From a virus: a DNA stretch of 34,896 nucleotides. Positions 2,406 through 18,172 of this stretch are shown in pieces. Location: IMG/VR virus record IMGVR_UViG_3300030101_001004, positions 1-34,896 of that record, one strand, 5' to 3'. The notes under the pieces were generated by a model that saw nothing but the letters and a program-made list of their open reading frames with translations, was not told the origin of the DNA and ran no database searches. Both the position numbers and the translations under genes were made by a program. Positions within the stretch are counted from its first letter, which is position 1; every line of letters starts with the position of its first letter.

Positions 2406-2636
2406 CTATAGTGGTATATCGTCTAGTTCTTCGTTATTAGATGGGGCAGTAGGCTTAAACTGGTCCTTAATCGTTATCTGCATCATCTTTGTATTCCCAT
2501 CTTTGGAGGTCTGCTCCCAGATAGAAACATCATAGGTTCCTGGAGGTAGAGCTTCTTTTAACTCACACTTCCCGTTCTTCCATAATGGGCCATTCCCATC
2601 GTTCTTGAAGGTATTTAAGTAGATTGGTTTTTCCAT
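2406..2636 (-). CDS. Possible small SSB-like protein, 76 aa
   Basis: The start is supported by AAAGGA upstream of the ATG at 2636. The 76-residue product looks beta-rich: segments such as PIYLNTFKNDGNGPLWKNGK and YDVSIWEQTSKDGNTKMMQI are followed by a short Pro-rich linker and an acidic tip, EELDDIPL. That tip resembles the DDDIPF tail by which single-stranded-DNA-binding proteins recruit host replication and repair enzymes. The strand-turn pattern around WEQTSKDG also recalls small DUF736-like beta proteins. It is the first gene after the structured leader at 2640-2790. The SSB role is an inference; a structural-module small protein is an alternative. Confidence 0.45.
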   Translation of the reverse strand: MEKPIYLNTFKNDGNGPLWKNGKCELKEALPPGTYDVSIWEQTSKDGNTKMMQITIKDQFKPTAPSNNEELDDIPL

Positions 2637-2794: not shown

Positions 2795-3652
2795 TCATGG
2801 CCTGGTACTCCGTGCCACAGCTTTTACAAATCTCTCTAGTTCATCATCACTATTATTCTTAGGTTTATTCATCATCATTCTATTGAAATACTTAATACTC
2901 CTAGGCATTTCCTGTCTTGGGAAGAACTTATCTTTGTACCATTGCAGTAATCTATGTAGCTTCCTAACTATCTGTTCGTACTCCATACCAGATTGTAACC
3001 AAGAGATAGCAATATTGATGTGATTATCATTGAATGTGAAATACTGGCCAGAGAGTTCCTCAGTCTTACGTTGCCATTGTATTAGTACCTCTTTACCCTT
3101 AATATATATATCATTGTTAATTGAGGTGTTATGTATTCCTTCTGAGTGCATACTATGTATTCCTTCTGAGGGAATATCTGCATGATTACTACCTCTACGA
3201 TTATTCCTTGAGGGAATACTTTTCTTCTTCTTATCAACAGGCTTATCGGTCATCTTAGGACCTTCTGGGAACTCTAATGGTTCTTCATCAGACCTCTCAC
3301 TTGCAGTCGCTATGGCCTTGGCATCCTCTTCACTAATCGCATTATCAAACACCATGAAGTACTTATTGCCCTTGAGTCCAGGATGCTTCTTGGCGTACTT
3401 TAGATACCCAAACTCCATGAGTTTCTTGATGTGCTTACTCACGGATGGTTGACCTATGCCCATGATCTTACCAATGGTAATCTGATTGGGCCAACAGACA
3501 CCTTGACGATTGGTATAATTACCCAGCATCGCTAAGACTCTGAACGTCTGAGGGAACCTTTTAAATCTCTGATCTACGACAGCAGACTGTGCCAACACAC
3601 AGAAGTACCCAGGAGTCTTTCCCTTACCGTAGTCCTTCTTTTCATTTGACAT
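2795..3652 (-). CDS. Winged-helix replication initiator (lambda O-like role)
   Basis: The 285-residue protein (ATG at 3652; an in-frame TTG at 3661 is less likely) has an N-terminal winged-helix/helix-turn-helix domain at about residues 10-105. It includes TIGKIMGIGQPSVSKHIKKL as the HTH and a FGYLKYAKK wing. A Lys/Arg/Ser-rich linker follows at about 115-175, then an alpha-helical C-terminal domain (WQRKTEEL to the end). This is the usual build of phage initiators that bind an origin through the N-terminus and load host helicase through the C-terminus. The linker is encoded by repeated DNA that looks like origin iterons (3130-3219). The gene overlaps the DnaA-like gene upstream by about 11 bp. 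The initiator role is inferred from domain layout and context. Confidence 0.65.
   Translation of the reverse strand: MSNEKKDYGKGKTPGYFCVLAQSAVVDQRFKRFPQTFRVLAMLGNYTNRQGVCWPNQITIGKIMGIGQPSVSKHIKKLMEFGYLKYAKKHPGLKGNKYFMVFDNAISEEDAKAIATASERSDEEPLEFPEGPKMTDKPVDKKKKSIPSRNNRRGSNHADIPSEGIHSMHSEGIHNTSINNDIYIKGKEVLIQWQRKTEELSGQYFTFNDNHINIAISWLQSGMEYEQIVRKLHRLLQWYKDKFFPRQEMPRSIKYFNRMMMNKPKNNSDDELERFVKAVARSTRP
3099..3122. other. AT-rich tract next to iterons (possible DNA-unwinding element)
   Basis: This tract, TTAATATATATATCATTGTTAATT by position, is almost pure A/T. It lies directly beside the iterons, on the 3' side with respect to the initiator gene. In phage lambda the origin inside gene O has the same order: iterons, then an AT-rich unwinding region. 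The function is inferred. Confidence 0.45.
3130..3219. repeat. Iteron-like repeats inside the initiator gene (candidate origin)
   Basis: Two exact 17-bp direct repeats, TATGTATTCCTTCTGAG, lie at 3130-3146 and 3154-3170, 24 bp apart. A third related copy at 3202-3218 (TATTCCTT..GAGGGAATA) lacks two bases. Copies two and three are also inverted repeats (ATTCC/GGAAT). They encode the initiator's linker, residues about 145-174, so the protein repeats SEGIH twice. Origin function is an inference by analogy with lambda O. Confidence 0.6.
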
Positions 3653-4097
3653 CAACTTCAATCATCATTGTCTTTGGTGTATCTTTGTAAATTGTTTCAA
3701 TCTCATTATAAAAATCAGACTTAGGTAAAGATAAAAGATTGATAGCACTAGAATGAGAACCTAGCTTTGTTCTTCCTAAAAATATTCCAATGTGTTTTTT
3801 CATTACATGAATATAATTGTAAGCAATTTTAGCAAAGTCAGCTCTAGCTTTAACTAAATGTTGTTTACGATTATAAGAAAAGAAATCCTTTTCATGTATC
3901 ATATGACAATGACAAACTATTCTTGATAAAAACTTCATACGATTGTGTTTTTCTGTTTTATTTAAACCCATCACTTTATTTTTTCGTACATGAGGTCTGT
4001 TAATTAAATCTAACAATTGACGAAGGCGTTTAATTTCATTTGGAGTCAAATCGTAAGGTGAATTATTAATATGATTTGTATTATTAAAACTACTCAC
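3642..4097 (-). CDS. Protein resembling DnaA domain IV (DNA-binding), 151 aa
   Basis: The first 50 residues are a polar, basic region. Residues about 55-140 resemble the C-terminal DNA-binding domain of the initiator DnaA. A helix begins at FLSRIVCHCHMIHEKDFFS, followed by R77 and a basic helix (HLVKARADFAKIAYNYIHVM). Then comes HIGIFLGRTKLGSHSSAIN at 102-120, which parallels the DnaA signature IG..FGGRDHTTV..A. No AAA+ ATPase domain is present. It sits between a DUF3310 gene (4-bp overlap) and the initiator gene. The likely role is recognising DnaA-box-type sites to help recruit host replication proteins, or blocking or titrating host DnaA. It was recognised by eye; another small HTH family is the main alternative. 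Confidence 0.5.
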   Translation of the reverse strand: MSSFNNTNHINNSPYDLTPNEIKRLRQLLDLINRPHVRKNKVMGLNKTEKHNRMKFLSRIVCHCHMIHEKDFFSYNRKQHLVKARADFAKIAYNYIHVMKKHIGIFLGRTKLGSHSSAINLLSLPKSDFYNEIETIYKDTPKTMMIEVDVK

Positions 4098-4668: not shown

Positions 4669-5376
4669 ATGAACCAATCGTTTATACAGAACAACAATGC
4701 TGGTAAGCCACACTACGGAAACTTTGTGGCTTACTACCGTGTATCGACACAACGACAAGGTGATACTGGTTATGGTTTAGATGCTCAGAAAAGAAAAGTA
4801 CAAGAGCATTTAGATGGTGGTAAATGGCAATTACTACAAGAGTTTACTGAAATAGAAAGTGGTCGTAACAACAGAAGAGTTCAATTCAAGGAAGCATTAA
4901 AACTATGTAAGAAAACAGGTGCTAAACTTGTTGTTGCAAAGCTAGATCGTTTGTCCAGGAATTTATTATTCCTTGCTACATTGATGGAGTCTGGCGTTGA
5001 ATTTGAATGTTGTGATATGCCCGATGCTAATAAATTAACTCTTCATGTATTAGGTGCTGTTGCTGAGAATGAAAGCACTAGAGTAAGAGAGAGAACAAGA
5101 TTAGCATTAGCAGAAGCAAAGATTAGAGGTGTTAAACTAGGCAATCCTCATACTGACAGCAGATTAAAAGCTGGTAGAAAAGGTAATAAAGTCCAGCGTA
5201 GTGAAGCCAATGATTTTGCACAAGAAATACTACCTTTAATTGATGGTATCAAAGCATCGGGATTAGCATCACTAAAAGATATTGCTCAAGCACTTAATGC
5301 TAGAGGAGTTACTACACAAAGAGGGGGCGTGTGGCATCCTTCTACAGTTTCTAACATTTTAAAAAGGAGAAAATAA
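4669..5376 (+). CDS. Small serine recombinase (resolvase/invertase type)
   Basis: The 235-residue protein has the resolvase catalytic domain at about residues 17-160. The nucleophile is S26 in YYRVST, with R24, then AKLDRLSRN carrying the active-site R94 and R97. The long E-helix is AVAENESTRVRERTRLAL. After a basic linker (LGNPHTDSRLKAGRKGNK) a helix-turn-helix lies at about 200-233 (LKDIAQALNARGV..HPSTVSNILKR). Such enzymes cut and rejoin DNA through a 5'-phosphoserine bond, resolving, inverting or integrating DNA. The size fits a resolvase/invertase better than a large serine integrase (about 450 aa or more). No attachment or crossover site is certain; the repeat-rich region at 5511-5645 is a candidate. 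Confidence 0.85.
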   Translation: MNQSFIQNNNAGKPHYGNFVAYYRVSTQRQGDTGYGLDAQKRKVQEHLDGGKWQLLQEFTEIESGRNNRRVQFKEALKLCKKTGAKLVVAKLDRLSRNLLFLATLMESGVEFECCDMPDANKLTLHVLGAVAENESTRVRERTRLALAEAKIRGVKLGNPHTDSRLKAGRKGNKVQRSEANDFAQEILPLIDGIKASGLASLKDIAQALNARGVTTQRGGVWHPSTVSNILKRRK

Positions 5377-6787: not shown

Positions 6788-7445
6788 TATATATTTAAAG
6801 ATGAACAATGTTATGGCTGGATGTAAGCCCATTGTTAAAGATAAAGCCAAAGGTATTCCATATCCTGTACTGCCTTGGAATAAAGTGTCAGACATGGTGA
6901 AGGATCTATTAGTTAAAGAAAAGATAACTTTTATACCACAAATCAGAGAAACAATTGCCAATGGTAATATGACTATCACAACAGTTGATGGTGAGTTTAT
7001 TAATGCAGAAAATCCAGAAGAGAAGATTACGATTAATGGTTTTACTGGATACGGTATTGATAGTTCAGATAAAGGACCAGGTAAGGCTTACTCTTATGCC
7101 ATCAAATATTTATTTATTAAAACATTTTGTATGCAGATTGGTGATGATGAGGATAGTGAAAAATCTAATCCTCAAGCACAGCCAATTGATAAGCTAGTGA
7201 AAGTAGCTGATAAAAAAGTTGTTAATCTTAATTCGAAGAAGCAAGATGATATTATTGTTGCAATGCAACGTATAGTTAAAAATGCTGAAGCTACTTTAGA
7301 AACAAGACAAGCAGATTTAGAAAATTATTTTTTTAATCAAGACTCGGTTATTAAAACACTTTCACCAGCACAGCAAAAACAACTGACAGAAATATTTGAT
7401 AGTTATCATCGTCAAATACGAGCAAAGATTAAGGGTACAAAATGA
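6780..7445 (+). CDS. erf: ERF-family single-strand annealing protein
   Basis: The 221-residue protein has the ERF core at about residues 1-125. YPVLPWNKVSDMV is followed by a beta-rich stretch and the signature DKGPGKAYSYAIKYLFIKTF (97-116), then GDDEDSE. A linker rich in Gln/Pro/Lys leads to a helical C-terminal domain (about 150-221). ERF proteins anneal complementary single strands during phage recombination and circularisation. The overlap with the exonuclease gene and the 4-bp overlap with the next gene indicate one operon. Confidence 0.9.
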   Translation: MSNIYLKMNNVMAGCKPIVKDKAKGIPYPVLPWNKVSDMVKDLLVKEKITFIPQIRETIANGNMTITTVDGEFINAENPEEKITINGFTGYGIDSSDKGPGKAYSYAIKYLFIKTFCMQIGDDEDSEKSNPQAQPIDKLVKVADKKVVNLNSKKQDDIIVAMQRIVKNAEATLETRQADLENYFFNQDSVIKTLSPAQQKQLTEIFDSYHRQIRAKIKGTK

Positions 7446-7651
7446 TAGGTCCTACTGAGAAGCAACAGAGGTGTCTAAACTTTATTAAAGATTTTTTAGA
7501 TAAAGAAAAGAGATCACCTACACTTAGACAGATTAAAGATCATCTTGAATTAAAATCACATACTTCTGTTTGGCATATGCTTAGACGTATGGAAGAGAGA
7601 AATTTAATTAAAGTTCATATTGGTAAAGCAAATGGGATTGAGGTCCTATGA
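7442..7651 (+). CDS. LexA-type DNA-binding domain protein, 69 aa
   Basis: All 69 residues correspond to the LexA N-terminal winged-helix domain. EKQQRCLNFIKDFL is the first helix, SPTLRQIKDHL enters the helix-turn-helix, and SHTSVWHMLRRMEERNLIKV is the recognition helix and wing. The LexA peptidase domain (Ser-Lys dyad) is absent, so it cannot be inactivated by RecA-stimulated self-cleavage. It probably represses or times transcription of phage, or possibly host SOS, genes. The palindrome at 2757-2777 is a candidate site. The gene overlaps its neighbours on both sides by 4 bp. Confidence 0.75.
   Translation: MIGPTEKQQRCLNFIKDFLDKEKRSPTLRQIKDHLELKSHTSVWHMLRRMEERNLIKVHIGKANGIEVL

Positions 7652-16450: not shown

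Positions 16451-18172
<1,722 letters not shown>

Follow-up and report, generated by a model that had tools for sequence, protein, structure and literature searches.

The replication origin of bacteriophage lambda is located inside the gene of its own initiator, the O protein. Its iterons, imperfect inverted repeats of 19 bp, serve as binding sites for O dimers, which open the adjacent A+T-rich stretch in negatively supercoiled DNA; two iterons and the A+T-rich tract suffice for this unwinding (PMC7466680, PMC5043065). The plasmid pSK41 carries an origin with four Rep boxes in the central part of rep, where the DNA encodes a linker, and Rep of the pPR9 chimera uses a pfam13730 (HTH_36) N-terminal domain that is related to a phage replication protein (PMC5703833). 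Iteron plasmid origins also carry DnaA sites (PMC5043065). Recruitment of the host polymerase III at the viral origin is one of three hypotheses for the cyanopodoviruses of clade MPP-C (PMC9860041), and the authors who described the OM43 phage MEP301 found no DNA polymerase and could note only a dependence on the host (PMC8024684).

The window analysed here is the whole 34,896-nt stretch of the virus record IMGVR_UViG_3300030101_001004, and positions are counted from its first nucleotide. The region 3089–3235 of the window, inside the coding sequence of an O-like initiator, is probably the replication origin of the phage (probability of roughly 0.87), as judged from conservation of the DNA among relatives and from analogy to characterized origins. 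Searches of the open-access literature turned up no description of an origin of this kind in these phages. The locus bears on the initiation of replication in marine podoviruses that lack a DNA polymerase, and it offers a concrete candidate origin of about 150 bp, a putative initiator–iteron code and natural variants of both. The initiator gene and its product are divided as follows.

2795–3661, minus strand: gene of the O-like replication initiator (288 aa; PHROG 391, Pfam HTH_36)
3305–3589, minus strand: predicted N-terminal winged-helix DNA-binding domain (AlphaFold model residues 21–115; HTH_36)
3434–3436, minus strand: codon 76, encoding a Lys of the predicted recognition helix; a Lys/Arg switch at this codon tracks the iteron half-site base
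3113–3304, minus strand: disordered linker that encodes the putative origin (model residues 116–179; AlphaFold pLDDT below 50)
2807–3112, minus strand: C-terminal helical domain (model residues 180–281; AlphaFold pLDDT of 83 as an isolated domain)

The reading frame begins with a TTG codon at 3661, and an ATG codon at 3652 is the likelier start, judged from relatives. The N-terminal domain matches Pfam HTH_36 with an E value of 2.7e-8 and, together with the start of the linker, matches PHROG 391 (‘replication initiation O-like’) with an E value of 1.4e-9; the same profile is matched by all 33 aligned homologues. Structural comparison of the N-terminal domain with winged-helix proteins in VIA-align gives Z values of about 7. 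The linker comprises 64 residues of very low AlphaFold confidence, and all three DNA repeats described below lie inside it. Matches to PHROG 186 and PHROG 7882 cover the winged helix and the linker, not the C-terminal domain. For the C-terminal domain, sequence and fold searches of the PDB yielded no confident match, which is not proof of a new fold. When the full initiator model was submitted to Foldseek, the top match (4pt7) was an initiator, with an E value of only 0.1.

The DNA of the linker and its C-terminal flank contains the following elements.

3202–3218, minus strand: iteron 1, TATTCCCTCAAGGAATA, 17 bp; imperfect dyad with 7 of 8 half-positions self-complementary
3158–3176, minus strand: iteron 2, TATTCCCTCAGAAGGAATA, 19 bp; imperfect dyad with 7 of 8 half-positions self-complementary
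3134–3152, minus strand: iteron 3, TATGCACTCAGAAGGAATA, 19 bp; imperfect dyad with 5 of 8 half-positions self-complementary, starting 24 bp from iteron 2
3093–3122, minus strand: putative A/T-rich unwinding tract; no other 30 bp of the gene is less stable in a nearest-neighbour stability profile
3231–3239, plus strand: near-DnaA box TTATCAACA, one mismatch from TTATCCACA; a weak, possible site for host DnaA
3089–3235, minus strand: block of 49 codons (143–191) without synonymous differences among eight sequences, those of the window and of its seven nearest relatives

The candidate origin resembles ori-lambda in layout. Both lie between the DNA-binding domain and the C-terminus of the initiator, both contain dyad iterons of 18–19 bp whose starts are 20–24 bp apart and which fall in several reading frames (three for the annotated lambda iterons), both have an A/T-rich tract on the C-terminal side, and the genes are of similar size (288 aa in the window and 299 aa for lambda O). 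The two differ in that the window contains three iterons, whereas lambda contains four of a different sequence, and in that the DNA-binding domain of the window initiator belongs to HTH_36, not to Phage_rep_O, and is not accompanied by a P gene. The window protein has no match to PF04492 (Phage_rep_O) up to an E value of 1, whereas lambda O matches at 5.7e-36, and an hhalign comparison of the window initiator with lambda O returned a probability of 0.2%, detecting no homology. Membership in the lambda O sequence family was ruled out by the missing PF04492 match and the hhalign result. The description ‘lambda-style’, given to the locus in the sequence-only reading, is thus apt for the design (the order of winged helix, iteron-bearing linker, A/T tract and C-terminal domain) and fails for the sequence family and the P-type loader. 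PHROG 391 bridges the two proteins: the window initiator matches it with its N-terminal domain, and lambda O, through its C-terminal domain, matches the profile's C-terminal half.

Likeness to plasmid initiators is also observed. As in pSK41, the candidate origin is central in the initiator gene and occupies linker-encoding DNA, and as in the pPR9 chimera, the N-terminal domain is of the HTH_36 type. The RepA_N initiators differ in being encoded by plasmids, not by a phage, and the window protein has no Pfam match to the RepA_N domain (PF06970) up to an E value of 1. A DnaD-type C-terminal domain (PF07261) was not matched in 13 long records of the lineage. The nearest cultured relative by large terminase (70%) is the 34.8-kb phage MEP301, which likewise encodes a resolvase-domain protein and a YqaJ exonuclease and lacks a polymerase. 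The O-like gene of this more distant isolate has only 201 aa, can be aligned just over the N-terminal domain and contains no comparable repeats or iteron array, which speaks against the origin reading. With the window and its relatives, origins placed in the disordered initiator linker would extend to a further phage lineage, one whose DNA-binding family differs.

Two exact 17-mers 24 bp apart and a copy two bases shorter had been described from the letters of the window, and they are found at 3130–3146, 3154–3170 and 3202–3218, respectively. When codons were shuffled synonymously with the peptide kept, a 17-nt repeat was reached in 1 of 2000 shuffles. This result alone is modest evidence because the peptide itself is repetitive, and relatives were therefore examined. 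Elsewhere in the window, a short-distance 17-nt repeat occurs only at 17391, within a collagen-like (GPTGPT) coding repeat, and a degenerate-pattern search for further iterons across the window revealed no excess over shuffled sequences and no second array. The A/T tract directly adjoins the iterons on the C-terminal side. The tract had also been described as 24 bp of almost pure A/T; at 3099–3122, 22 of its 24 bases are A or T and the pure run spans just 13 (3099–3111). The coordinates of the sequence-only reading are right, and the constrained block is wider than stated there, at 3089–3235. The genome as a whole is A+T-rich, and the tract is not exceptional in it, as 253 of the 34,867 30-mers of the window are less stable. 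In lambda O, and in 13 of 24 representatives of the lineage, the 30-mer of lowest stability in the gene also adjoins the iterons.

An IMG/VR scan retrieved 80 homologous loci with 41 to 96% identity over most of the initiator protein; relatives were also sought in genome contigs, where none was confirmed. The homologue linkers contain one to three recognizable dyads of 17–19 bp, mostly two or three, and some clades show two iterons instead of three. The starts of iterons 2 and 3 are separated by 24 bp in almost every homologue (25 bp in L131 and L178), despite iteron lengths that range from 17 to 19 bp. Among the eight closest sequences, the block 3089–3235 shows no synonymous difference, with each 40-codon window covering about 980 codon comparisons. 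It is the lowest of 898 windows in five neighbouring genes; in four neighbouring genes, the lowest 40-codon window reaches 9%, and synonymous difference in neighbouring genes averages 13–19% in this closest group. When seven clades are pooled, the normalized synonymous rate is about 0.22–0.44 over the linker versus about 1.1 elsewhere. Synonymous positions are conserved in the A/T tract to the same degree as in the iterons, and the difference within the tract is 0–6% in every clade. Conservation of the iteron DNA at synonymous sites in relatives, which the sequence-only reading had proposed as a check, is thus strongly borne out across the 80 homologues.

The iterons also recur in different reading frames. 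In L008, iteron 1 (TATTCACTCAGAAGGAATACA) and iteron 3 (TATTCACTCAGAAGGACTACA) match over 21 nt with one mismatch at an offset of 89 bp; this places them in different frames, and the encoded peptides are KYSLRRNT and DIHSEGLH. Iterons 1 and 3 match out of frame over 13 nt exactly in L036 and over 21 nt with two mismatches at an offset of 68 in L043. The out-of-frame matches of these three loci were reached by none of 400 same-peptide codon resamplings (p = 0.0025), and L017, L036, L043 and L045 behave like L008 in codon resampling. Two 19-mers of L131, which differ by two mismatches, start 25 bp apart and are thus out of frame. Dozens of related ocean viruses keep these DNA repeats, even when read in another frame, and the comparison indicates that the iterons are selected as DNA, beyond what the peptide implies.

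Depending on the clade, the iteron half-sites read TATTC or else TATGC or TATGT. A scan of the protein columns for association with the fourth base of the half-site identified residue 76 as the best column outside the linker. With loci found later included, residue and base agree in 86 of 87 sequences, with 56 Lys/T pairs, 30 Arg/G pairs and one Lys/G pair; the Arg loci found later (L131, L178 and L179) mostly have G at the half-site. One iteron bears the other half-site type in clade E and in clade L118. The association spans about four changes on the tree (two to four independent events), a number with which a sign test cannot reach significance. The association is suggestive of an initiator that reads its own gene, and phylogenetic confounding is possible.

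Of 69 distinct linkers, 8 contain an exact DnaA box (consensus TTATCCACA, which reads TGTGGATAA on the other strand) a short way upstream of the iterons. The window itself contains no exact box, and L001, L006 and L007 carry one at the position of the window's 3231–3239. Ten exact boxes were counted, compared with a mean of 1.0 and a maximum of 6 in 300 resamplings under a synonymous null. The box-bearing linkers come from at least four lineages, namely the three close relatives of the window, L030 with L034, L052, and L131 with L178 (boxes at L001:6417, L007:1853, L030:551, L034:4384, L052:764, L131:3432–3452 and L178:496–516). L131 and L178 each have two DnaA boxes 12 bp apart, and both are among the several box-bearing clades without iteron 1. 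Within 12 long records, four of the six exact boxes fall inside the linker and two outside. Of 1679 letter-permuted 9-mers, 12 are found in as many linkers, and several of these are pieces of iterons or of other conserved linker DNA. The boxes hint that host DnaA may help initiation in some clades, a role that is not secure for the window.

The constraint and the covariation of the iterons with the recognition helix demonstrate that a binding site is under selection, which is not the same as initiation, and would also suit an intragenic operator by which the initiator limits its own transcription (roadblock autoregulation) while replication starts elsewhere. We consider this operator improbable. 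The constrained block extends beyond the iterons through the A/T-rich flank, lambda O and pSK41 rep each contain an intragenic array of the same layout that is a known origin (PMC7466680, PMC5043065, PMC5703833), and exact DnaA boxes stand beside the iterons in some relatives.

The chance that the repeats constitute a packaging (pac) or recombination site appears smaller still. The operon is ordered as DUF3310, a variable small gene, the initiator, a small gene, TerS and TerL; a pac site would be in keeping with the small terminase gene downstream in the same operon and with the conserved synteny of the last four genes. However, the repeats track the DNA-binding residue of the initiator itself and sit in the initiator linker in every clade. 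RNA structure or an overlapping gene is very unlikely to be the source of the synonymous constraint: the dyad iterons can form short hairpins, but the fold z-scores of seven linkers range from −1.9 to +0.2 with no Rfam match, and no alternative frame is open across clades. That the repeats are a by-product of protein-level selection on the repeated peptide IPSEGIHSMHSEGIH is hardly credible, given that iterons 2 and 3 of the window do share a frame and encode similar peptides but lie in a segment that is predicted to be disordered and frozen at synonymous positions, and that the same DNA encodes different peptides in relatives, such as the two of L008.

The repeats, the selection on them at the DNA level, the order of the domains and the instability of the flank are observed in this analysis, and the analogy to lambda serves as a working analogy for the way in which the putative origin would operate. 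From it we infer binding, melting, helicase recruitment and initiation at 3089–3235. Dimers of the N-terminal winged-helix domain of the initiator would bind the three dyad iterons, and the clustering and bending of the iterons would strain the adjoining A/T-rich tract. The tract (3093–3122) would then melt, and the C-terminal helical domain would bring in the host helicase and polymerase.

Recruitment of the host enzymes is proposed because neither a phage helicase nor a phage polymerase was found. A family A polymerase, a DnaB-type helicase and a DnaC-type ATPase were not found in the 13 long records of the lineage, with positive controls, although the records may be incomplete. The phage of the window encodes no recognizable polymerase. 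The lambda P-type loader (PF06992) was likewise detected in none of the 13 records, which may be incomplete, with a positive E. coli control. A broader and doubtful scenario, which we offer tentatively, is that polymerase-less marine phages of one widespread lineage capture host replication by means of a single protein. The initiator, with a C-terminal domain of unrecognized fold, would bind its intragenic origin and load the host helicase directly, without a phage loader, and host DnaA at the boxes might help in some clades. The Lys/Arg change would then re-address the initiator to new iterons, giving rise to replication compatibility types.

The GC skew of the window tracks gene orientation and says nothing about the origin because it follows the gene strand. 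At four-fold sites, the skew of the two arms is −0.129 versus −0.021, in the expected direction, with a difference of 0.11 that is within noise (standard error near 0.09, estimated from counts).

Other genes of the window were also annotated. The small gene on the 3′ side of the initiator (2406–2636, minus strand) takes the place of the annotated SSB of MEP301, and its sequence was matched only in the closest relatives. The start of the initiator is overlapped by a 151-aa gene (3642–4097, minus strand) with a weak Pfam match to the DnaA C-terminal HTH (E value of 0.025). This gene had no tblastn match in the fetched relatives, in which different genes of 119–188 aa occupy its place. The serine recombinase encoded at 4669–5376 (plus strand) carries a resolvase domain together with part of a Recombinase domain (PF07508, E value of 4e-6), the latter reported absent in MEP301, and may be an integrase or an invertase. 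Just after the exonuclease and ERF genes, 7442–7651 (plus strand) encodes a 69-aa protein that consists only of a LexA-type DNA-binding domain and is a possible regulator.
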